Source: Desulfocurvibacter africanus subsp. africanus DSM 2603
GTDB lineage: Bacteria; Desulfobacterota; Desulfovibrionia; Desulfovibrionales; Desulfovibrionaceae
Assembly (NCBI RefSeq): GCF_000422545.1
Contig: NZ_KE383873.1
Span: forward strand, 1 to 64,000
Reading direction: 5' to 3'
Length of the DNA stretch: 64,000 nucleotides
Of the stretch, positions 43,027 through 54,873 are shown piece after piece. The translations under genes and the position numbers were made by a program. Positions within the stretch are counted from its first letter, which is position 1; each line of letters starts with the position of its first letter. The notes beneath the pieces were generated by a model. The model saw only the letters and a list, made by a program, of their open reading frames with translations. It searched no databases and had not been told where the DNA came from.

Positions 43027-44460
43027 TTAGCGGCGGATCAGGCCGTGCTTTTTGAGCTTGTATTGCAGGGTGCGCCGGCTGATGCCCAGGGCGTCGGCGG
43101 TGCGCTCGCGGTGACCGTCATGCGCCTCCAGCGCCTGGACCAGGGCTTGGCGCTCGGCTTCGTCCAAGGATGAATCGAACGGTCCGGCGAGTACCGGAGA
43201 GTGTTCCGGCGAATCCTGGAGCGCACGCGTTTCGCGCTCCACGAGGACCTCGCGGTCAAGGCTGGCCTCGCGCACATGGGCCGGCAGCAGGTCGGGCGTG
43301 AGCACGTCGGCACGGGCCAGGATGAGCGCTCGCTCCAGCACATTCTCCAATTCGCGCACGTTGCCCGGCCAATCATGGCCGGAGAGCGCTTCCAGGAAAT
43401 CGGGCGAGACCGTGCGCACTTCCTTGCGGTTCTTGCGGCCCAGCTTGCGCAAAAGATAGCTGGTCAGTATGGGCAGATCCTCCAGCCGCTCGCGCAGGGG
43501 GGGGATGCGCAGCTCCAGGACATTGAGCCGAAAGAAGAGATCCTCGCGAAAGCGGCCCTCGCGCACCTCCTGCCGCAGGTCGCGATTGGTGGCCGCGATG
43601 ATGCGCACATCCGTCTCCACGGAACGCACCGAGCCCAGGGGCTCCACCACGCGTTCCTGGATGGCGCGCAGGAGCTTGGGCTGCAACTGCAGGGGCAGCT
43701 CCCCGATTTCGTCCAGGAAGAGCGTGCCGCCTTGAGCTAGTTGAAAGCGCCCCGGCTTGTCCTTGACCGCGCCGGTGAACGCGCCGCGTACGTAGCCGAA
43801 CAGCTCGCTTTCCAGTAAATCCGCGGGCAGGGCCGCGCAGTTGACCTTGACCAGCGGGCCGTTCTTGCGGCCGCTCAAGGCGTGCAGCCGCTCGGCCACG
43901 AGTTCCTTGCCCGTGCCCGACTCACCCAGGATGAGCACCGTGGCCTCGCTGGGTGCCACCTGCTCGATAAGCTCTTCCAGCCGGCGCATGGCCGGGCCTT
44001 GGCCGATGATCTCCGGCCCGCTCTGGATCTCCCCGCGCAGCCGCTCGTTCTCGCGCAACAGCTGGCCGTACTGCCAGGCCTTGTCCAGCACGGCTTCCAG
44101 CTCGTCGTTGTCTGCAGGTTTGGTCAGGTAGTCGTAAGCGCCTTTCTTCATGGCTTCCACGGCCGAGCCCACGCTGCCGAAGGCGGTGAGCATCACCACG
44201 GGCAGGCCCGGCCTCAGTTCGCGCAGAGAGCGCAGGATGGCCAGTCCGTCCATGTCCGGCAGGCGCATGTCCAGGAGCACCACATCGGGAGCGGGCCCGG
44301 AGCGCAGGATGCGCAGGGCCGAGCCGCCGTCGGCCGCCTCGGCTACGCGCCAGCCGTTGTCTTCCAGCACGGCCCGGACCATGAGCCTGTGGCCCGGTTC
44401 GTCGTCCACCACGAGGACGCTTCGTTCATCCTGGATCTCGTCGCCTTGCGCAGTCGTCAT
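43027..44460 (-). CDS. Sigma-54-dependent response regulator (NtrC/ZraR family)
   Basis: A 477-residue transcription activator. The N-terminal receiver has the acidic pair VVDDE and phospho-Asp in VVLLDMRLPDMDG; the central AAA+ domain has Walker A GESGTGKE, the sigma-54 contact loop YVRGAFTGAVKDK and Walker B LFLDEIGELPL; the C-terminal Fis-type helix-turn-helix is RTADALGISRRTLQYKLKKH. It activates promoters of the GG/GC (-24/-12) type. No kinase gene is adjacent. The Zra-like sensor kinase at 51.8-53.6 kb and the sigma-54-like promoter before the ZraP-like gene make this a plausible, unproven partner. Confidence 0.95.
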   Translation of the reverse strand: MTTAQGDEIQDERSVLVVDDEPGHRLMVRAVLEDNGWRVAEAADGGSALRILRSGPAPDVVLLDMRLPDMDGLAILRSLRELRPGLPVVMLTAFGSVGSAVEAMKKGAYDYLTKPADNDELEAVLDKAWQYGQLLRENERLRGEIQSGPEIIGQGPAMRRLEELIEQVAPSEATVLILGESGTGKELVAERLHALSGRKNGPLVKVNCAALPADLLESELFGYVRGAFTGAVKDKPGRFQLAQGGTLFLDEIGELPLQLQPKLLRAIQERVVEPLGSVRSVETDVRIIAATNRDLRQEVREGRFREDLFFRLNVLELRIPPLRERLEDLPILTSYLLRKLGRKNRKEVRTVSPDFLEALSGHDWPGNVRELENVLERALILARADVLTPDLLPAHVREASLDREVLVERETRALQDSPEHSPVLAGPFDSSLDEAERQALVQALEAHDGHRERTADALGISRRTLQYKLKKHGLIRR

Positions 44461-44817
44461 GCCCTTTCTCCGCGTTGACTGCGGCGGAGCATCCGCCGCT
44501 TACCTCGTTTACCCTCTTGTCCCGCGAAACGGAACAGCCAAGCGCCGCTGCGGGTCTCGACGCATCATGACCAGACGAGCGCCATTTAGCGCGACGTGGC
44601 GCTCACTTCTGAAGCTACTACTGATTACAAAACATTTCGTTAGCTGAAACATTGCAGGTAAAGATTTATCTCCAAACAGTCGATTAAAGTAACACAGACC
44701 ACTTTCATCGAGATGACGGGCGCGAATGCTGCTTGCCGCACTGGCCGTGCCATGTGCGCGCACAGCAGAGTTGCATCGGTTCGTGCCTTCACCCTTGCTC
44801 CACGGATGGAGTCGATC
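44461..44817. other. Divergent intergenic region between the sigma-54 regulator and the TraF-like gene
   Basis: About 355 bp without a supported gene. It contains a dyad GAGCGCCA ... TGGCGCTC (44577..44604, 8-bp arms, 12-base loop) and a stretch of lower GC (44605-44700). No convincing -24/-12 or -35/-10 promoter was found by eye. Confidence 0.4.
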
Positions 44818-46374
44818 ATGCATCGCATCAGTTCTCGTGCATTGCGGTTGGCCGTCGGCGCGGCACTTTCGGGCGTGCTTGCGTTGCCCAGCACGGCCCT
44901 GGCTTTGGACACCTTTTTCGTAGGCCCGCGCGCCATGGGCATGGCCGGAGCCAATGTGGCCTCGGTGACGGATACCACGGCCCAGTATTACAACCCCGCG
45001 GCATTTGGCTTCTTCGGCATGGTCGGCAGCGAGATGGACAAGAAGGGGAAGACCGTGGAAAAGCGGCTGACCTCCGACAACAACAACGTCGGCCGCAAGG
45101 ACTGGGGCTGGGATGTCGTCTCTGCCGGCGGCGGCATACGCGCGCATAACGACCTTGGCGACATCATCAACGACCTCGCGGGCGTCGACCTTGATGAAAT
45201 CGAGAACGGCGTGCAGACCAAGGACGAACTGGACGATCTCATTCTTCTGGCTAACAAGCTGGAACTCCTCGAGAACCCTGGCAACGGCCTGACCGCCAGC
45301 GTAAACGGTGGCACGGCCCTGCGCGCCGGCAGCTTTTGTCTTGGCGTGCGCGGTTACGGCCAGGGTGCCGTGCATGTGCTTGGCGATATCGACACGACGA
45401 ACCTGGGCATCGAAGCCACCGATATGACCGACCTGAGTGGCCAGATCGTGTCCGCAGCGAACTCCGCGGGCTACAGCACTGACCCTGGGCAGGTCAGCTT
45501 GCTTACGGCGGATCAGGTCACCATTCTGACAAACGCAGGCTTCACTCCCGCAGCCATTGCGGCCATCGACAGTGCGGCGCAGGAGCAGGGCATCACGCAA
45601 CAAGACATCGCTCCCCTGGTCTCCACCATGGAGGACGTTGCCCAGGCCACCAGTTCTTCAAGCGGAAGCCTTGATGACAACCAGACCACGGTGCTCGTGT
45701 CGGGCTTCGGCCTGGCCGAGGTCCCTCTATCCTTCGGCTACGCCTTCAACGAATACATCTCCGTGGGCGGCAACATCAAGGCCATGATGGGCCGCGTATA
45801 CGCCACCGAGGTGCGTGTTTTCGATTCGGAGACCGAGGAGATCTTCTCGGAGGCGGAGGAGAGCTACGAGGAGTCCATGAACTTCGGCGTGGATCTGGGC
45901 GTCATGGGCCGCGTGCGCTGGTTCCAGGCCGGCATCGTGGGCCGCAATCTCAACTCGCCCAAGTTCAAGGGCCCGGAGATCACCCGCAGGGACGGCACGG
46001 TGGTCCAGTTCGAGGACGTGACCGTCAAACCCCAATTCGCGGCTGGTTTGGCTTTAATTCCCTTCGAGACGTTCACCATAGAGGCCGACATCGACCTGAA
46101 CAAGAACGAGACCGCTCTGGAAGGCTATGAGACGCAGTTCGTGCGCGTGGGCGCCGAATGGGACATCCTCCGTTTCCTGGCCCTGCGCGGTGGATTCTAC
46201 ACCAACCTGGCCGAGGACGACATCGGCATAGTCTACACCGCGGGCCTTGGCCTCAATCTCTGGGCCGTACGCCTGGACGTGGGCGGCGCTTTCTCTGCTA
46301 AGACGATGGAATATGACGGCAATGACATCCCTAAGGAGATGCAGCTCGTGGCCGGCCTGAGCATCGACTTCTAA
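44818..46374 (+). CDS. TraF-like (TraF_2) outer-membrane protein
   Basis: A 518-residue exported protein. A signal peptide (LALPSTALA-LDTFFV) is followed by VGPRAMGMAGANVASVTDTT and AQYYNPAAFGF, the pattern of the family annotated as conjugal transfer protein TraF (PF13729), a FadL/OMPP1-like barrel. A central helical, Asp/Asn/Ser-rich insert (about 130-300) precedes the C-terminal barrel strands, ending in Phe (LVAGLSIDF). Despite the name, no conjugation genes are nearby. The start MHRISSRA has GGAG six bases upstream. It ends at a strong bidirectional terminator. Confidence 0.83.
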   Translation: MHRISSRALRLAVGAALSGVLALPSTALALDTFFVGPRAMGMAGANVASVTDTTAQYYNPAAFGFFGMVGSEMDKKGKTVEKRLTSDNNNVGRKDWGWDVVSAGGGIRAHNDLGDIINDLAGVDLDEIENGVQTKDELDDLILLANKLELLENPGNGLTASVNGGTALRAGSFCLGVRGYGQGAVHVLGDIDTTNLGIEATDMTDLSGQIVSAANSAGYSTDPGQVSLLTADQVTILTNAGFTPAAIAAIDSAAQEQGITQQDIAPLVSTMEDVAQATSSSSGSLDDNQTTVLVSGFGLAEVPLSFGYAFNEYISVGGNIKAMMGRVYATEVRVFDSETEEIFSEAEESYEESMNFGVDLGVMGRVRWFQAGIVGRNLNSPKFKGPEITRRDGTVVQFEDVTVKPQFAAGLALIPFETFTIEADIDLNKNETALEGYETQFVRVGAEWDILRFLALRGGFYTNLAEDDIGIVYTAGLGLNLWAVRLDVGGAFSAKTMEYDGNDIPKEMQLVAGLSIDF

Positions 46375-46430
46375 CCACGTTTCATCTTCGCTCGGGTAGC
46401 TAGGCTGCCTGGCGGAACAGCGCACAATGC

Positions 46431-46464
46431 AAGAGGCCCCGGAAGTGATTCCGGGGCCTCTTGT
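46431..46464. terminator. Bidirectional terminator between convergent genes
   Basis: CAAGAGGCCCCGGAA and TTCCGGGGCCTCTTG form a perfect 15-bp stem with a GTGA loop, placed between the convergent ends of the TraF-like gene and the VWA lipoprotein gene. Confidence 0.85.
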
Positions 46465-46490
46465 CATAGTTATATTCTTGCACGCTACGG

Positions 46491-47204
46491 CTACTCTCCA
46501 AAGATGCGCTCCAATCTCTCCAGGTCGTTGACTACCAGGAACGAGCCGCCGCCTTGCTCTACACGGGCACGCCACTCTTCCAGCCTCTGCTGGTACTTGC
46601 GCGGGTCGATCTGATCGTTGCGCAGCTTGGTCACATTGAGGGCCACCACGCGGATGCCAGCCAGATCCATAGGAAAGTCGCGCTCATAGCCTGGCTTAAG
46701 CTCCTCCTGCATGTCGGAGAAAACGAGGATGGTCTTGCGCCCCGCGCCGGTTTCGTCGATGAACTCGGCGGCCTGAAGTATTCCGCCGGTGATGTCCGTG
46801 TACGGGCTCCCGTTCAGGTTGACCACGGCGGCGCGCAAGGCGCTCAGAAAAGCCCGCTTCTGGTCGTTGACGGTGGAGGGCCTGCTATCAAAGGTCACCT
46901 TGGCCAACAGGTCCTTTTCGCTGAAGCTGGCCGTGTCGATGCGACCCACGGCCAGCGAGTCGCCCGGCTGCAGCCTGGCCAACAGCCAGTGGACGATTGC
47001 CTGGGCCTTGTCCAACTCTTGTTGATAAGTGCCGGAGGTGTCCAGGAGCATGTAGATAGCCTGGGCATGGCTGGTGGTGTCAGGGCAGCCGGTTAAAGCC
47101 ACGGCGGCCAACAGCGTTGCAGCCAATACCGCAAGTCGGATCGGCCTCAGGCCAAATCGGGCGAGGCGGCGCATGAACAAGGGGGGGCGGATGATTGCGC
47201 GCAT
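46491..47204 (-). CDS. VWA-domain lipoprotein
   Basis: A 237-residue predicted lipoprotein. The signal peptide ends at the lipobox ALTGC with Cys at about 40. The rest is a von Willebrand A domain: the metal-ion site begins AIYMLLDTSGTY with D55-x-S57-x-T59, and later blocks include ITGGILQAAEFI and TILVFSDMQEEL. It should bind a divalent ion and a protein partner in the periplasm or at the envelope. It starts ten bases after the stop of the coiled-coil membrane protein gene, so the two form one operon. The start MRAIIRPP has an AGAGGA site; a Met at residue 11 is an alternative. Confidence 0.83.
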   Translation of the reverse strand: MRAIIRPPLFMRRLARFGLRPIRLAVLAATLLAAVALTGCPDTTSHAQAIYMLLDTSGTYQQELDKAQAIVHWLLARLQPGDSLAVGRIDTASFSEKDLLAKVTFDSRPSTVNDQKRAFLSALRAAVVNLNGSPYTDITGGILQAAEFIDETGAGRKTILVFSDMQEELKPGYERDFPMDLAGIRVVALNVTKLRNDQIDPRKYQQRLEEWRARVEQGGGSFLVVNDLERLERIFGE

Positions 47205-47214
47205 GCTGTTCCTC

Positions 47215-48723
47215 TCAGGCCGATTTGGTAGCGCCGTCGCTGTCGGTCAGACTTGGGGCGCCGCATGTCTCAAACACGTCATGCTGATCATCGCCCTCGC
47301 TGATAGATGCGGGGACTGCCGGCTCAATTCGTACGTATCTGGATTCCTTGCACACAAGCAGGCGGCATTCGATCCAGAGCGGGAAGAAGATGAGCACGTC
47401 GTACAACGCAACCGTGAGCTTGCCCAGGGTCAGGCACAGGCTGCCCAGAACCCGCAGCAGCCAGGCCGTGATCTGCACCAGGCCAAGCAGGATCATGCCT
47501 GTCACGGTGCGGGCCGAGTGTATGAACGACTCCAGGGGAATGGCCACGAAGGTCAAGGCGAAGGGCAGGATGAAGCCGAGCACCATCTGGCCCGCTGTGG
47601 GTATCCAGGCGTAGGCGCCAGTGCGTACCAGGTGTTCCGCGCCGGACAGGGTCTGGCGCAGAGCCTCGTTATCCGCCGCGATGCGGTCGCGCATGAAGGC
47701 CAGGGCCGACTCCACTCCGGCCAAAGTCAGCAGGAGGGCGAAGGCGATCCAGCCTAGGCGCCTGCGCATGCGATCGTCCATCATGGTGATGAGCGGGAAA
47801 AGCCTGGTGATGCGCAGGGCCTCCATGAGGAACAGGCCCATGGCCGCTTCCACGAGGATGATGACCATGGCCGCGACGTTGGAGGTCTTGAACGGCCCAA
47901 GGTAGCTGCCGCCGCCCACCATCTCGGACATGGGCAGGGCGATTAGATTGAAGTTGATGACCGCGCCGCCCATGGCGATGAGCAGCACCAGGAGCGAAAT
48001 GAAGAACTGGGTCATGGCTGAGGATGACAGCTTGTGCAGACTCTTGTCCGACTGGCGGCGAATCTGCTCGTACTCTTCCATCCGGCGATCCGCCATGGCC
48101 GCCCGCTCGGGCAAACCTGCCACGGTCCGGCCTACGTCACGCAAGTATCCCGAGAGTTCCCGCCAGCGCGGAGCCATGCGGTGCAACAGGGCGTGCCGGC
48201 GTGCGCTCTGCTTGCGGTAGTCGTCCAGGACTTCCTTCTGCTGGCGCTTGAGGGTCTTGTGGATCTCGCCCAGCACGTTCCCGGCCATGCGGTCCTTGGC
48301 GCAATCCTCTAGTCCGGCAACGGTTTCCACGGCCTTGATCCAGGCCGTGGGAGCTGGCGGGACATCAACGGTGGACTGATAATCCACGTCCACGCGTTCG
48401 ACCAAGTCCGCAATTTTGCGTTGCAGAGCCGGAAATCCAGCCAAGTCGCGAGACAAGATGGTCTGGATGCGCTGGAACTCGCGCTCCAGTTCGGTTTCCG
48501 CCTCCAACTCGCCCCGTGCCAGGAGCACATCGCGGTTGCGCTGGCGCAGCAGGGCCTCCGTGGACTTCACGGCGCGTGCGCTCAGGCGCAAAGCATTGTG
48601 CGCCACGCGGCTGGCGCTGATAATGGCATGCTGGGCGGGGTGCCGTCCGAAATACAGGGCGACCATGAGCAGGGCCGCGCCGACGAGCAGGCTTATGGCG
48701 GTGTAGTCTTGCAGGAAGTTCAT
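47215..48723 (-). CDS. Multi-spanning membrane protein with a large coiled-coil region
   Basis: A 502-residue protein I do not recognise. One helix near the N-terminus (about 8-26) is followed by some 210 residues of charged helical sequence with coiled-coil character (ARGELEAETELEREFQRIQT; MADRRMEEYEQIRRQSDKSL), then about five or six more membrane segments between residues 240 and 460, and a polar Asp/Ser-rich tail. The arrangement recalls stator-like or mechanosensing membrane proteins (MotA/TolQ-type helices), but no signature residue supports that. It directly precedes the VWA lipoprotein gene. The start MNFLQDYT has GGAGG about eight bases before it. Confidence 0.68.
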   Translation of the reverse strand: MNFLQDYTAISLLVGAALLMVALYFGRHPAQHAIISASRVAHNALRLSARAVKSTEALLRQRNRDVLLARGELEAETELEREFQRIQTILSRDLAGFPALQRKIADLVERVDVDYQSTVDVPPAPTAWIKAVETVAGLEDCAKDRMAGNVLGEIHKTLKRQQKEVLDDYRKQSARRHALLHRMAPRWRELSGYLRDVGRTVAGLPERAAMADRRMEEYEQIRRQSDKSLHKLSSSAMTQFFISLLVLLIAMGGAVINFNLIALPMSEMVGGGSYLGPFKTSNVAAMVIILVEAAMGLFLMEALRITRLFPLITMMDDRMRRRLGWIAFALLLTLAGVESALAFMRDRIAADNEALRQTLSGAEHLVRTGAYAWIPTAGQMVLGFILPFALTFVAIPLESFIHSARTVTGMILLGLVQITAWLLRVLGSLCLTLGKLTVALYDVLIFFPLWIECRLLVCKESRYVRIEPAVPASISEGDDQHDVFETCGAPSLTDSDGATKSA

Positions 48724-48800
48724 GCTATCATCCTCCAACAAGTGTCTTACAAAACCCATGCCGTTACGGCAGGTTGCAGCAATTCCCTCGTAAACCATAA

Positions 48801-48932
48801 GTTACAGGTCCGAACGCGTTTTCCAATCCACCAATGCTGGAAGATCTTCTGCCAATATGGGAACAAGAAGAACCAAATATTGCTCACGCTCCAGCGGAGA
48901 CATTCGTTTGGTACATCAATTACGATGATTAA
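48801..48932 (+). pseudogene. Possible gene remnant of 43 codons, AT-richer than its surroundings
   Basis: An open frame ending at TAA encodes a protein-like segment that includes PMLEDLLPIWEQEEPNIAHA and ETFVWYINYDD. Its base composition is clearly lower in GC than neighbouring genes, and there is no ribosome site (the only ATG is at 48834). It looks like the tail of a lost, possibly foreign, gene. It lies 45 bp upstream of repeat copy 6. Function unknown. Confidence 0.3.
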
Positions 48933-48977
48933 GTGCTCGCAGTGGCAGCCAAGTCATGACGCGCTTTGGCAGGCTCA

Positions 48978-49106
48978 CTAGAGCAGATTGCTTTTAAGAC
49001 GCCCGCTCCGGCGTTGACGGCGCAAGTGAATTGCGCCTGCGCCTACGTAGCGGCAAGCCATGCCGACGCATGGCTCGCAGAGCATTTTCAAAAGCAAAAT
49101 GCTCTA
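48978..49106 (+). repeat. Interspersed ~128-bp repeat, copy 6
   Basis: Complete copy with both TA-bounded ends. The central palindrome has one change (GGCTCGC). The spacer is GCCTACGTAGC. It lies between the 5' end of the coiled-coil membrane protein gene (minus strand) and the 3' end of the hybrid kinase gene, with its AAAATGCTCTA end facing that stop codon about 160 bp away. Confidence 0.93.
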
Positions 49107-49264
49107 AACCGCCTATTGCGAGAAACCATATTGAAGATGGATGCGGCTTTAAAGGCAGGGTTTATAGCAAGCTATAATGAACCGCGGACCTGGGCGTGTC
49201 TTATTCGAGAATGGTCCGGCAGGTGAGGAGGGCAAAACCTGCCCCATTCCTTGTGCTGGATGCT

Positions 49265-51412
49265 CTAACTTTGGCCCAGGGCGCGGCCCTTTAAAGCCTC
49301 GCGCACGGAGCGCAGCAACTCTTCGCGGCCAAAGGGCTTGGGCAGGAAACCGGTCATGCCGGCATCCATGATGTTGCTGCGGTCTCCTTCCAGAGCATAG
49401 GCCGTGACCGCCACCACAGGCAGGTCGCGTGGGGTGTTTCCTGCCTGACCGGAACGAATGCGGTTCAGGGCCTCCAGTCCATCCATGAGCGGCATCTGGA
49501 TGTCCATGAGCACCAGATCCACATGTTCTCTGGCCAGCAAATCCAAGGCTTCCTGGCCGTCGCAGGCCTCCAGCACGCGCAAACCCTCGCGCTCCAGGAG
49601 ATGGCGCACCATGAGCCGGTTGGTGGCCTCGTCCTCGGCATGCAGCACCGTGGTCCTCTCGGGCATGGCCAACCCCAGTGGTTTGGTCGACTTCTTGGTT
49701 GCGGGTTGTATCGCGCGGGGCAAGCTGATCGTGAAGTGGAACAGGCTGCCACGGCCGACGGAGCTCTCGGCCTCGATGCGCCCGCCCAGCTTGCTCACGA
49801 TGTGCTTGGCTATGGCCAATCCCAAGCCTGCGCCTCCGTAGCGCTTGGTCAGATAGTTCTCGCCCAGGTTGAAGCCCTCGAAAACCTCAGCCAGCTTGTC
49901 ATTGGGGATGCCGATGCCCGTGTCGGAAACAAGGAATGTGACGGGCAAGGCCGCACCGTCCTGTCTATCCTTCTCGGCCAGGCGCACCTCCAACCGTACC
50001 GAGCCCGACTCCGTGAACTTGACCGCGTTGTCCAGGAGGTTGATGAGCACTTGCTTGAGGCGCAATTCGTCTCCCAGGAATTGGCCGGATAGGGCCGGGT
50101 CCACGCTGGCCGAGAAATCCAAGCCCTTGAGCCGCGCGCGCACGGAGAAGAAGCGCGCGACCGAATCCACTGCTTCGGCCAGGCCGAAGGGTCGACTGAT
50201 GGGTTCGAAGCGCTTACGCTCAAGGGTGGACAGCTCCAGCAGGTCGTTCACGAGCCCTAGCAGATCATGGGCCGAGGCGCGAGCCAGCTCCAGAAAATTG
50301 CGCTCCTCCGGTTCCGAGCGGGATATGAGCAGCAGCTCGATCATGCCCACGATGCCGTTCAGGGGCGTGCGCAGTTCGTGGCTCATGTTGGCCAGGAACT
50401 GGGACTTGGCCCTGTCGGCAACTTCGGCTTTCTGGCGGGCCTGTACAAGCTCTTGTTCGGCTTTCTTGCGCTCGGTGATGTCCAGCGAGAAGCCGCCCAC
50501 ACCCTCCACCAGACCTGACTCGTTGAGAACCGGAAACAGGATGGTGTCGAAGCAGCGCAGGACGCCGCCCAGATAAAGCTTGTCTTCAATGCGCAGCGGC
50601 TTGCCAGATTCAGCAACCTGCCGCATGTACTCGAGGAAAGACCGAGCTTTCTCCTCACCGAAAATCTCGCTCACGTGACGGCCCACCACATCCACATAGC
50701 GCTGGCCCATCAGCGATTCCCAATCTGGATTGACCAGGCTTAGGCGGCCGTCAAGGTCGGTGATGTGCAACGGGCACGGAATGTTATCCAGGAAGCTCCA
50801 CAGGAAGGTGTGCAGCTTGCGGTAGCGGACTTCCTTCTCCAGGTAGTCGGTCAGGTCCGTCACGATAACGTGCAGCAGATCCTTGCGGCACAGGCGGATG
50901 GGGCTGGCGATGATTTCCACGTCGCGCGGAGCGCCCTCGCGGGCCATGTGCCGCGAGATAATGCGCTGTGCGGACTTTGCATGGGACAGGGCCAATTCGG
51001 ATGGGGGCTGGCCATTTTTGGGTACGGTCAGGTCCAGGAGCTTGCTGCCGGCTATATCGTTTCGGCCGTAGAAGTCTCGGGCGCTGGCATTGGCCTCCAC
51101 GATGGCCAAGGTCCCCGGGTCCACCAGCAGCATTGGGTTCAGATTGCTGCCAAACAGGCCCTGGTAAACACGGACTTGTTCCTCGATGGATCGCCTATAA
51201 CCGCATACCAGCCTGTAGAGCACCAGAGTGGTGATGACCACGAACAGCAGGCCCTTGACCGTTTGCAGTCCCTGGGGTGGATGGTCCGCGTATAAATGAG
51301 AGAGTATGCTGTCGGAAACGAAAATCCAGGCTCCAGCCAGCAGAAAGTAGAGCAGGACGACTCGCAGGATGCCCGCATCAAGGGACATGGAAAGAGACAG
51401 CAGTTTGCGCAT
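49265..51412 (-). CDS. Hybrid sensor histidine kinase with two PAS domains and a receiver
   Basis: A 715-residue membrane-bound kinase. Two membrane helices (about 13-35 and 52-70) are followed by PAS-like domains (about 80-200 and 210-330, the second ending VGGFSLDITERKKAEQELVQ), the dimerisation domain with phospho-His in FLANMSHELRTPLNGIV, the ATP-binding domain (N-box INLLDNAVKFTES, G-boxes DTGIGIP and YGGAGLGLAIAKHI) and a C-terminal receiver with phospho-Asp in LVLMDIQMPLMDG. A further phosphotransfer protein is expected. No HPt domain or separate regulator is next to it. Confidence 0.93.
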   Translation of the reverse strand: MRKLLSLSMSLDAGILRVVLLYFLLAGAWIFVSDSILSHLYADHPPQGLQTVKGLLFVVITTLVLYRLVCGYRRSIEEQVRVYQGLFGSNLNPMLLVDPGTLAIVEANASARDFYGRNDIAGSKLLDLTVPKNGQPPSELALSHAKSAQRIISRHMAREGAPRDVEIIASPIRLCRKDLLHVIVTDLTDYLEKEVRYRKLHTFLWSFLDNIPCPLHITDLDGRLSLVNPDWESLMGQRYVDVVGRHVSEIFGEEKARSFLEYMRQVAESGKPLRIEDKLYLGGVLRCFDTILFPVLNESGLVEGVGGFSLDITERKKAEQELVQARQKAEVADRAKSQFLANMSHELRTPLNGIVGMIELLLISRSEPEERNFLELARASAHDLLGLVNDLLELSTLERKRFEPISRPFGLAEAVDSVARFFSVRARLKGLDFSASVDPALSGQFLGDELRLKQVLINLLDNAVKFTESGSVRLEVRLAEKDRQDGAALPVTFLVSDTGIGIPNDKLAEVFEGFNLGENYLTKRYGGAGLGLAIAKHIVSKLGGRIEAESSVGRGSLFHFTISLPRAIQPATKKSTKPLGLAMPERTTVLHAEDEATNRLMVRHLLEREGLRVLEACDGQEALDLLAREHVDLVLMDIQMPLMDGLEALNRIRSGQAGNTPRDLPVVAVTAYALEGDRSNIMDAGMTGFLPKPFGREELLRSVREALKGRALGQS

Positions 51413-51661
51413 CGTTTACAAAGCCAGCTATAGGTCAAGACAGTGTTTGATAACTGCTCAACGATGTGGACCCTTGCGGGTTCTGTATATTGGCTTTGTA
51501 GACCCTGCTTTGGGAAAGCACAAGGAAAAATGGTCGCGCGCAGGTTATGCACCGGAAAGACGCCAGGCGGTTGCGTCTTCTCGGCACATTCGCCCCGGCA
51601 GGAAGCTTGGCTTTGTGCCGATTCCAGGCAGGTTTTAGATCCGGTTCTGGAAGATGTTGTC
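51413..51661. other. Upstream region of the hybrid kinase
   Basis: About 250 bp between the hybrid kinase start and repeat copy 7. No supported gene; it should hold the kinase promoter, but none is clear by eye. Confidence 0.35.
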
Positions 51662-51790
51662 TAGAGCAGATTGCTTTTAAGACGCCCGCTCCGGCGTTGA
51701 CGGCGCAAGTGAATTGCGCCTACGCCGAAGCTAGCGACAAGCCATGCCGACGCATGGCTTGCAGAGCATTTTCAAAAGCAAAATGCTCTA
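51662..51790 (+). repeat. Interspersed ~128-bp repeat, copy 7
   Basis: Complete copy with TA-bounded ends and the GCCGAAGCTAGC-type spacer shared with copies 1 and 4. Its AAAATGCTCTA end lies two bases from the TAA stop of the minus-strand Zra-like kinase gene. Confidence 0.94.
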
Positions 51791-51792
51791 AA

Positions 51793-53553
51793 TTAGGCCG
51801 GAGGCAGAAAGACGCGCACAACAGCGCCTCGACCTTCCTCGCTTTCGATCTCCAGATGGCCGCCGTGATCCTGCACGAGCTTGTGGGCAATGGCCAATCC
51901 CAAGCCCGTGCCTTGGGCGCGGGTTGTGAAGAACGGCTCCAGGGCATGCTCACGGGCATCGGGACTGAAGCCGCGGCCGTTGTCGGCCACGGATAGAAGT
52001 ATGTCGTTCCCGGCGGGCTCCGCAGTTACGGTTACCTGGCCTCCGGTTGCGGGCAGTGCGGCCAGGCTGTTCATGATAAGGTTGAGCAGAACCTGCTTGA
52101 GGCCGTCGGAATCGGCGTGCACGCTCGGCGTGCGGGCTTCGAAACGCAGTTCGGCCCCGGCTTTCGCGGCCTCGCCCTCCAGCAGTCGTCGCAGATCCTC
52201 GAACAGGGCCGTCGTATCCACATCCTGGGGAGTCAAGCTCTGGGGCCTGGCCAGGAAAAGCATGTCGGTAATGACTTTGTTCAGCCGGTCGGCCTCTCGG
52301 ACCATGGTCCGGGCGTATTCCTCGTCTGGCTGAACGCCCTGCAGTTTTTTGAGGAAGAATTGCGCGAAACCGCGCAGGGCCGAGAGCGGATTGCGTATCT
52401 CATGGGCCACGCCGGCGGCCAGCCGACCCACGGCGGCCAGCTTCTCGGCCTCGGCCAGGCTGCGTTCCAGGGCCTTGAGCCGCGTGCGGTCGCGCACGAG
52501 CACCAGGCTGGAACCTGGGCCATCGTCCGCTTCGCCCACTGACCGCCGTAGTACTTCCAAGCGCTTGCTTCCCAGTTCGGTTTCGGCCCAGGCTTCGCCA
52601 CCGTTTTCCTCATTGATCGCTTGCCCCAAGGGCAGCCAGTCAAGAGTTGAACCCACGAGCGTGCCTGGCGCGCGCTCCAGAATGGCGTGAGCCGCCGGGT
52701 TGGCCGCGCGCACGACGCCCTGGCCGTCGAGGCTCAACAAGCCGTCGGGCATGTCGTCCAGCAGGCGGGCGTGGAAACGCTGCAGGGCCTGATAAGCCCG
52801 AGACTGCTCGCGTCGGCGAAGATAATAGGTGAAGAAGGCCAGGAATCCGGCAGCCGCGGCCAGTATGAAACCGGTCTGGTATATGGCCGTGCGCTGGAAC
52901 TCGTTGTATAAGCCCAGGTATTCCTCCACGCCCAGGCCCATGACCAGGTACAGCACGGAAGGCCGTCGCCCGCCGGTCATGGGCTGTCCGTCAGGAGAAC
53001 GCTCAAAGCCTCGGGACTCGGGCAGGTCGTGATCCTGCATGCCTTGGCAGAAACGGGCCACGGCTGGTCTGGCACGTTGTGCCAGATACAGCACGCGCTC
53101 GCCGTTCTGCACCTGCAACGAGTACCAGAGACCCGTCTCGCGCAGCCCGCGCAATCCTTCGGCCGATAATGCAAAGGCCCTGCCGGCTTCAGGTGAGGAT
53201 GAGATGATAATGTCGCCGCTTGTATCGAGCAGGCCAAGAAAGCGTACATCGCTGTCTTGGGTCAATTCAGTCAGTAGATCAGCGGTAAGGGAAGGAAGCG
53301 GTTCGTCCATGGATCCGTGAAAGCCGCGTCGTCGCATGGAATCTGGCCCCATGCGGCGCAGGGAGCCTTGCAGATGGGCCTGCGTGGAGCGCAACACTAC
53401 CTGGGCCGAGAGGAGCATGTGCCGCATGACCAGCTCTCGCTGCTGGCGCACGCTGTTCCAGGTGGCCAGAATGAGACTCGCGGCCACGATGCCCGTGGCT
53501 GCGATGGCCACCAGCAGGGGCAGTCTCCGGCTCTGGGTGACGCTGATCTCCAT
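51793..53553 (-). CDS. ZraS-like sensor histidine kinase
   Basis: A 586-residue membrane kinase. TM1 (about 10-30) and TM2 (about 210-232) flank a periplasmic sensor region of about 175 residues; a PAS domain (about 255-345) precedes the phospho-His in AAGVAHEIRNPLSALRGFAQ and the ATP-binding domain (NLIMNSLAALP, DNGRGFSPDA, GTGLGLAIAHKLV). This layout is that of NtrB/ZraS-type kinases that control sigma-54 regulators. It is downstream of the ZraP-like gene on the same strand, separated by 206 bp that contain a long hairpin. The ATG start at MEISVTQS is preferred over a GTG two codons earlier. The likely regulator is not adjacent. Confidence 0.9.
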   Translation of the reverse strand: MEISVTQSRRLPLLVAIAATGIVAASLILATWNSVRQQRELVMRHMLLSAQVVLRSTQAHLQGSLRRMGPDSMRRRGFHGSMDEPLPSLTADLLTELTQDSDVRFLGLLDTSGDIIISSSPEAGRAFALSAEGLRGLRETGLWYSLQVQNGERVLYLAQRARPAVARFCQGMQDHDLPESRGFERSPDGQPMTGGRRPSVLYLVMGLGVEEYLGLYNEFQRTAIYQTGFILAAAAGFLAFFTYYLRRREQSRAYQALQRFHARLLDDMPDGLLSLDGQGVVRAANPAAHAILERAPGTLVGSTLDWLPLGQAINEENGGEAWAETELGSKRLEVLRRSVGEADDGPGSSLVLVRDRTRLKALERSLAEAEKLAAVGRLAAGVAHEIRNPLSALRGFAQFFLKKLQGVQPDEEYARTMVREADRLNKVITDMLFLARPQSLTPQDVDTTALFEDLRRLLEGEAAKAGAELRFEARTPSVHADSDGLKQVLLNLIMNSLAALPATGGQVTVTAEPAGNDILLSVADNGRGFSPDAREHALEPFFTTRAQGTGLGLAIAHKLVQDHGGHLEIESEEGRGAVVRVFLPPA

Positions 53554-53703
53554 GGGCACCTCTTTCTTCCTGGCGCGTAGGCTGCGGTCTTGTCCTCGCG
53601 GCGGAACTGGTCACGGCCAAGCGCTAGCGGCTTTCCGCCTATCACATCTTTCTATTTATCCAGGCCCTTTTCCGCTTGGCCGGAGAGCGCCGGCAATGCG
53701 TTG

Positions 53704-53759: not shown

Positions 53760-54314
53760 CTATATGGCGGAGGCGGAGGGAGCCTTCTGCATGCGGCCGC
53801 CCAGGACGGCGGGGTCATGCATCATTTGCTTGCCGTTCATCATGCCCATACCGTGCTTCATGCCTTTGCCGCCCATCATGCCCTGGCTGCCCATCATGCC
53901 GCAACCACCCATGCGGCCCATGCCCATGCCGATCTGCGGGAGGCCTTCCTTCTTGAGGGCCGCGTTAAGGGCCTCGCGCTCGGCGTACTGCTTGGCACGC
54001 AGAGTCTTGAGTTCGGCCACGAGTTGGCTGATGCGCTCGGGCTTGGTGTTCGGGTTGGCGGAAAGAGCGTTCAGTTCGGTCTGTTTGGCCCACATGTCCT
54101 CGCGCACGGCATGGGTCTTCTTCTGGTGCTCGGACATGATCTTGTCGAACTTGGCCTGCTGCTCCGGCGTCAGGGCCGGGGCCTGGACCTGGGCCTTTCC
54201 AGCATCGGTGGCGGAGCCGTGATCGTGCGTAGCGGTTTGGGCCAGAGCCAACGAAGCGGAAAGCAGGACAGCCATGCCTGTGAGAGCGAAAATGCGCAGC
54301 GACTTGCAATTCAT
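53760..54314 (-). CDS. ZraP-like periplasmic metal-binding protein
   Basis: A 184-residue exported protein. A signal peptide ends near SLALAQ; the mature part begins with a His-containing segment (THDHGS), then a helical CpxP/Spy/ZraP-type region (LTPEQQAKFDKIMSEHQKKT, MWAKQTELNALSANPNTKPE with the LxxLRAK-type helix) and a C-terminal Gly/Met/His-rich tail (GMGMGRMGGCGMMGSQGMMG and more). In the Zra system the corresponding protein is a zinc-dependent chaperone and negative modulator. It precedes the Zra-like kinase, and its promoter looks sigma-54-dependent. Confidence 0.85.
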   Translation of the reverse strand: MNCKSLRIFALTGMAVLLSASLALAQTATHDHGSATDAGKAQVQAPALTPEQQAKFDKIMSEHQKKTHAVREDMWAKQTELNALSANPNTKPERISQLVAELKTLRAKQYAEREALNAALKKEGLPQIGMGMGRMGGCGMMGSQGMMGGKGMKHGMGMMNGKQMMHDPAVLGGRMQKAPSASAI

Positions 54315-54366
54315 GAGTATCTCTCCATATCAAGGGGGTTTTACAATTCGGACTTGCTGCCTATAG

Positions 54367-54382
54367 AGCAGAGTCTGTGCCA
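54367..54382 (-). promoter_or_regulatory. Candidate sigma-54 (-24/-12) promoter of the ZraP-like gene
   Basis: On the minus strand TGGCAC-AGACT-CTGC matches the consensus TGGCAC-N5-TTGC except for one base, with the essential GG and GC at the right spacing. The predicted start point is about 40 bases before the ATG. A nearby sigma-54 regulator and a ZraS-like kinase support it. Confidence 0.65.
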
Positions 54383-54465
54383 GTAGTTAAAACTCAATTA
54401 ATACAGTATGTTGCCTTCATGGTGCGAGCCCAAGGCCTTTGTTACGACCAGTTATGTGCAACAGA

Positions 54466-54480
54466 CTGCACCTTGTGCAG
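54466..54480. promoter_or_regulatory. Candidate activator-binding palindrome (proximal)
   Basis: CTGCAC-CTT-GTGCAG is a perfect palindrome about 100 bp upstream of the sigma-54-like promoter; it resembles NtrC-family sites (TGCACC-N5-GGTGCA) in its half-sites. It lies about 42 bp, four helix turns, from the second palindrome. An additional half site GTGCA stands at 54456..54460. It could instead serve the NifU-like gene on the other strand. Confidence 0.45.
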
Positions 54481-54509
54481 CAAGTGCTCCGATATTGTGT
54501 AAGGTATGT

Positions 54510-54521
54510 TGCACATGTGCA
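54510..54521. promoter_or_regulatory. Candidate activator-binding palindrome (distal)
   Basis: TGCACATGTGCA is a perfect 12-bp palindrome with the same TGCAC/GTGCA half sites, centred about 42 bp from the proximal one and about 145 bp from the sigma-54-like promoter. Confidence 0.45.
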
Positions 54522-54651
54522 GCACTGTTCTATTAGCGGATGCTCACTTCGGCCTGCCGCGCCATGCGGCCGTAACCGCCCGATCATCAAATTGACAAGC
54601 AGGGGTAAAGGAAGTAGCAGCAATCCCAACATGACGCTCAGGGATACAACG

Positions 54652-54873
54652 ATGCGCGAACGGGTGCTGGCAGCCCTTGACATGATCCGTCCGGTCCTGC
54701 GAGCCGACGGCGGGGATGTCGAGCTCGTCGAGGTTACCGACACCGGTGTGGTCAAGGTCCGCCTGCGTGGCGCTTGCCAGTGCTGCACCATGTCCAGGAT
54801 GACCCTCAAGAATGGCATCGAGCGCACCATCCTCAAGGAAATCCCTGGCCTCACGTCCGTAGAGTCCGTTTGA
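54652..54873 (+). CDS. NifU C-terminal-domain Fe-S scaffold protein
   Basis: A 73-residue protein consisting only of the NifU C-terminal (Nfu) domain: RPVLRADGGDVELVEVTDTG followed by the CxxC-type cluster site in GACQCCTMSRMTLKNGIE. It can carry or deliver an Fe-S cluster. The ATG at 54652 has AGGGA eight bases before it; an ATG seven codons upstream is possible but lacks a well-placed site. It ends at a strong terminator and precedes gltX. Confidence 0.93.
   Translation: MRERVLAALDMIRPVLRADGGDVELVEVTDTGVVKVRLRGACQCCTMSRMTLKNGIERTILKEIPGLTSVESV

Follow-up and report, generated by a model that had tools for sequence, protein, structure and literature searches.

A predicted sigma-54 promoter with a GTGCA-N6-TGCAC operator upstream of the zraP-like gene of Desulfocurvibacter africanus and its conservation in Desulfovibrionales

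As judged from sequence comparison, the sigma-54 promoter of the zraP-like gene of Desulfocurvibacter africanus is real and belongs to a known type; its operator, GTGCA-N6-TGCAC, is newly resolved. Very probably, the activation of zraP is due to a ZraSR-like two-component system that also activates its own kinase gene and acts through an array of this operator found across the order, probably with an IHF-type bend. The stretch of 64,000 nucleotides that was analysed (the window) is part of contig C39; the genome searched comprised 4.4 Mb in several contigs, and the relatives found belong to one family and order (named close matches: Humidesulfovibrio and Desulfovibrio), in agreement with a place in the Desulfovibrionaceae.

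Genes of the locus and the sigma-54 box

The zraP-like gene (53760..54314, minus strand; ATG at 54314) encodes a periplasmic Metal_resist protein of 184 amino acids (PF13801, 8.5e-15; PDB 3lay, ZraP, 9.8e-12). The gene for a ZraS-like sensor histidine kinase (51793..53559, minus strand) follows zraP on the same strand, with no terminator-like site predicted between the two genes, and kinase orthologues are found immediately downstream of zraP in 11 relatives. The proposed activator is an NtrC-type response regulator (43027..44460, minus strand), which belongs to the enhancer-binding proteins (EBPs) by its receiver, sigma-54 AAA+ and Fis-type HTH domains (PF00072, PF00158, PF02954) and by the GAFTGA loop in its translation. 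The locus thus has the gene grouping of the ZraPSR type, namely a Metal_resist periplasmic protein, a pair of kinase and EBP, and a sigma-54 promoter for zraP. Since the NCBIfam equivalog cut-offs were not reached by any of the three proteins (ZraP, 54.5 bits with a cut-off of 200; ZraS, 273.5 with 479; ZraR, 403.7 with 760), we call the system ZraPSR-like, not ZraPSR.

In the same 11 relatives, zraP, the kinase gene and the regulator gene form one operon, and therefore the window holds a split form of it. Distances of 9.9 kb and 7.3 kb separate the regulator gene from the promoter and from the kinase gene, respectively; between kinase and regulator lie four other genes, of which one has the opposite orientation. 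Because the regulator gene is this far from the promoter and outside the operon, its expression may be decoupled from that of zraP. The interrupting region (44461-51792) contains a hybrid kinase gene, two unassigned genes and a plus-strand gene for an outer-membrane-like protein. On the other side, a NifU-like gene (54631-54873) is divergent from the zraP-like gene.

The predicted sigma-54 promoter, TGGCACAGACTCTGCT (54367..54382, minus strand), reads TGGCAC-AGACT-CTGC-T, with T(-24) at 54382, C(-12) at 54368 and a predicted start point near 54356. The GG-GC spacing is the canonical 10 bp, and a single mismatch to TGGCAC-N5-TTGCW was found (C for T before TGC). The box is located 53-68 bp 5' of the ATG, in agreement with the 50-70 bp of the original prediction. 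In the scored scan, no other sigma-54-like site of equal score was found in the window. The same box is carried upstream of the zraP homologues of the relatives, and rpoN is present in the genome (PF04552 at C10:100815, 1.6e-60).

The operator and the twin palindromes

The original prediction described two palindromes, 42 bp apart, upstream of the box. Both were located as claimed: palindrome 1, CTGCAC-CTT-GTGCAG (54466..54480), has perfect 6-bp arms and an asymmetric 3-bp centre, and palindrome 2, TGCACATGTGCA (54510..54521), is perfect, with half-sites at 54510-54514 and 54517-54521. Their centres are 42.5 bp, approximately four helical turns, apart. A genome search for such palindromes was suggested at the time; exact TGCAC-N2-GTGCA occurs only twice in the genome, each time upstream of a zraP paralogue (the second copy at C9:71059); the form is also present at locus L062. 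Taken together, TGCAC-N2/3-GTGCA was found at 18 places in the genome (control, 8). The near-perfect symmetry, the spacing by about four turns and the recurrence at the second zraP would suit a pair of operators, each for one activator dimer. The comparison of zraP promoters, however, argues against this reading. Among 15 of them (13 from relatives and two from the window's genome), TGCAC-N2/3-GTGCA is present in four (the N3 form in one), whereas GTGCA-N6-TGCAC is present in 14, with 0.002 expected in shuffles. In a larger set of 54 non-redundant promoters, which were selected by the N6 operator, the N2 form was found in five and the N3 form in two. The twin palindromes were therefore rejected as the operator unit, and we regard the paired-operator reading as quite unlikely. 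The prediction of an EBP-controlled sigma-54 promoter for the zraP-like gene is retained, while its binding unit is replaced: the conserved unit across Desulfovibrionales is, on these counts, GTGCA-N6-TGCAC.

In the window, the predicted principal activator operator, GTGCA-ACAGAC-TGCAC, which is conserved in zraP promoters, lies at 54456..54471 and overlaps palindrome 1 by one half-site (54467-54471); a further half-site, GTGCA, follows within that palindrome (54475-54479). The two palindromes would thus be adjacent half-sites standing back to back, with a mutual spacing that is not conserved, and palindrome 2 is probably the distal part of an enhancer array. The 15 zraP promoters together contain 66 half-sites (6 expected). 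The region of palindrome 2 (54507-54524) was also considered as a terminator hairpin; this was rejected, as one terminator-like match was obtained against 1.4 expected in shuffles and no known plus-strand gene lies upstream.

A composite pattern (GTGCA-N6-TGCAC, a gap of 50-80 bp and TGGCAC-N6-TGC) was scanned in 348 genomes. It was found at 111 sites in 78 genomes (reversed control, one site), although these counts are not of independent events because the compared sites share ancestry. The box and the palindromes are weak singly; their combination is not due to chance, because of this excess and of the restriction of exact TGCAC-N2-GTGCA in the genome to the promoters of the two zraP paralogues. 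By itself, the box pattern shows no enrichment in the genome (TGGCACN5YTGC, 18 sites; reversed control, 30), and for this reason a chance resemblance was considered, but against the conserved position with partner sites and the paralogous promoter this explanation is next to impossible.

The half-sites are also located 110-175 bp before the start of the NifU-like gene, for which no sigma-70-type promoter consensus was found, and they might accordingly control that gene, or serve both genes. In the relatives read, however, it is zraP that the operator accompanies; only two neighbourhoods contain a NifU-like gene, which does not adjoin zraP there, and the orientation of the operator and its spacing to the sigma-54 box are kept toward zraP. 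The alternative named in the original prediction, that the palindromes serve the NifU-like gene, is thus disfavoured and appears very unlikely.

With zraP as the target, further features of the promoter were compared within the set of 54. In 49 promoters, the 100 bp preceding the operator contain further half-sites, in steps of approximately 11 bp. The gaps between operator and box cluster at 51-55, 60-65 and 73-79 bp, and a Rayleigh test on them favours periods of approximately 11-12.5 bp, a result inflated by relatedness; phasing on the same face of the helix is therefore plausible, not proven. Between enhancer and promoter, an IHF-like element, CAACATACTGTAT (54401..54413, minus strand), was recognised. 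Of the 54 promoters, 31 (7 in shuffles) have a YAANNNNYTGAWW-like element whose start is 29-32 bp upstream of the -24 box; the motif was adapted after inspection, and the copy in the window deviates from the consensus WATCARNNNNTTR. Because of this adjustment, the element is suggestive only.

The regulator and its recognition helix

Orthologues of the regulator were assigned at a threshold of E <= 1e-145 and were found in 170 of the 348 genomes. They are present in 74 of the 78 genomes with the operator and in 96 of the 270 others (Fisher p 7e-23; the related genomes are not independent); these 96 genomes are without a strict composite match, and some of them have variant boxes. A regulator orthologue lies downstream on the same strand at 58 sites, at a distance of 2.3-4.6 kb for 57 sites in relatives and of 9.9 kb for that of the window. 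The operator thus is an inverted repeat upstream of the promoter that is conserved together with the regulator, as expected of an EBP operator. When the contigs were searched with the regulator, the matches listed were mostly distant EBPs, and only those at L115 and L116 were close.

The regulators of operator-bearing loci share ...TADALGISRRTLQYKLKK..., with the recognition helix ISRRTLQYKLK. At loci where zraP and zraSR are divergent, the regulators carry ...AARRLGITRATLHNKLRR..., with the helix ITRATLH.KL, or ITRKTL variants, and six promoters of such loci contained no N6 operator and only 4 stray half-sites. The same genome provides a control: at its divergent zraP/zraSR locus (contig C5), the helix is different and the intergenic region contains no half-site. 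These comparisons show covariation of the recognition helix with the operator type. Two ZraR-like classes in one genome, differing in parallel in helix and operator, make this a clear example for deducing the specificity of EBPs from sequence. Repeated TTTATACA-type motifs were observed in promoters of the divergent class (L069-L071 and L074), and are probably the operator of that class. On contig C5, the small zraP-like gene, divergent from a second ZraSR-like pair (L084; G000:C5:127267-130740), has a sigma-54 box of its own.

With approximately 36 EBP candidates in the genome, and the regulator gene not adjacent to zraP here, the operator could be recognised by another EBP; the one encoded at C1:450451 carries SRRAIHYKVKK, which is a related recognition helix. 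This is unlikely, since genome-wide co-occurrence and physical linkage favour the orthologues of the regulator at 43-44.5 kb, and among the 22 EBP helices read in the genome, ISRRTLQYKLK was found only in the window's regulator. The proposal that this regulator is the activator, already made in the original prediction, is accordingly probable: its orthologues share an operon with zraP, and the recognition helix tracks the operator type. An exact operator, a regulator and a testable regulon can thus be given for one of the EBP candidates.

We infer the following course of activation. The promoter would serve a ZraPSR-like operon, with envelope or metal stress as the presumed signal. The kinase (51793-53559) would phosphorylate the regulator (43027-44460), which would bind the array of GTGCA half-sites centred on the N6 operator at 54456-54471. 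A bend of the DNA, probably by IHF at 54401-54413, would bring the regulator to the sigma-54 RNA polymerase at 54367-54382, where its GAFTGA loop would drive open-complex formation, and zraP would be transcribed, probably together with the kinase gene. As for the signal, a zraP homologue of D. alaskensis G20 decreased and did not increase under copper (PMC8836040).

Further targets and comparison with known systems

Exact copies of GTGCA-N6-TGCAC were found at five positions in the genome. Two are in the zraP promoters; the second zraP (C9:71237-71695, 56% identical) has a promoter of the same layout, with a sigma-54 box, TGCACTTGTGCA, the N6 operator and further half-sites. Two others form a tandem pair (C39:336633/336663; G000:C39:336633-336678, L080:6634-6679) upstream of an ABC transporter with a LolD/MacB-like ATPase. 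By eye, a weak sigma-54-like sequence, TGGACCTGTTTTTGCT, below the scan cut-off, was seen between the pair and the transporter, approximately 40 bp before the start of the ATPase gene, and the transporter is a candidate third target. The fifth copy (C7:132512), in the start of ispG, is probably there by chance; it has neither a sigma-54 box of the score used nor further half-sites nearby, and was rejected.

In the relatives, the composite element also precedes genes for SHOCT-like small membrane proteins, small periplasmic proteins and a CcmF-like gene (identities assigned by eye). In genus g29, it precedes a noncoding stretch of 143-149 nt, which ends in a perfect terminator, AAAAAGGGCCG/CGGCCCTTTTT (L226:419-562, L227:461-608, L230:469-617, L231:2678-2820(-), L232:429-574, L233:2684-2829(-), L240:400-544). 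With a covariance model (R1), matches to this RNA were obtained for 11 genomes within the genus (E < 1e-25) and none for the window's genome; no matching family was found in Rfam. The stretch (approximately 145 nt) is probably a sigma-54-dependent small RNA under the same operator, and its CCUCC-rich part could pair with Shine-Dalgarno sequences. In genus g49 (L099, L100, L102-L106, L243, L244), a conserved, GC-rich stretch of several hundred bases comes after the operator and sigma-54 box; no convincing gene was seen in it, and it may be another noncoding RNA.

These observations would fit a sigma-54 regulon for envelope stress that spans the order Desulfovibrionales and is governed by a ZraR-like class with its own operator code (arrays of GTGCA-N6-TGCAC half-sites) and helix. 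Past the zraP-like genes, this regulon would take in small SHOCT-like proteins of the membrane, a transporter of the Lol/MacB type and, in certain genera, a noncoding RNA rich in CCUCC. To this proposal, taken as a whole, we give an even chance. No description of an order-wide regulon of this kind was found in the literature searched.

In E. coli, ZraR binds the spacer between zraP and zraSR (PMC8249747); it activates ZraP in a sigma-54-dependent manner, and a role in envelope stress was proposed (PMC7657598). The present system resembles ZraPSR of E. coli and Salmonella in having a periplasmic ZraP-type protein, a kinase and a sigma-54-dependent NtrC-type regulator that would act on zraP and its own operon. 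It differs in that the genes are co-directional (zraP-kinase-regulator), not divergent, with the regulator gene split off in the window, and in that the window's regulator scores higher with AtoC and NtrC than with ZraR (NCBIfam).

The EBPs of D. vulgaris and their targets, some of which are noncoding RNAs, have been mapped (PMC3333781, PMC4641369). The targets given for DVU3381 are DVU3382-DVU3381 and DVU3384, with the label 'envelope stress response' (PMC4641369, PMC3333781). DVU3381 is likewise a response-regulator EBP with GAFTGA that acts on its own operon and a nearby gene; by the targets listed there, it looks like a member of the divergent class (L069-L073), which has a different recognition helix and is without GTGCA-N6-TGCAC. 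Neither TGCAC nor GTGCA was found in the running text of PMC4641369. The operator given there for the flagellar EBP DVU2894, yGTCA-N6-TGACr (PMC4641369), is similarly an inverted repeat of short arms separated by 6 bp, in front of genes under EBP control, but with a half-site different from the GTGCA described here.
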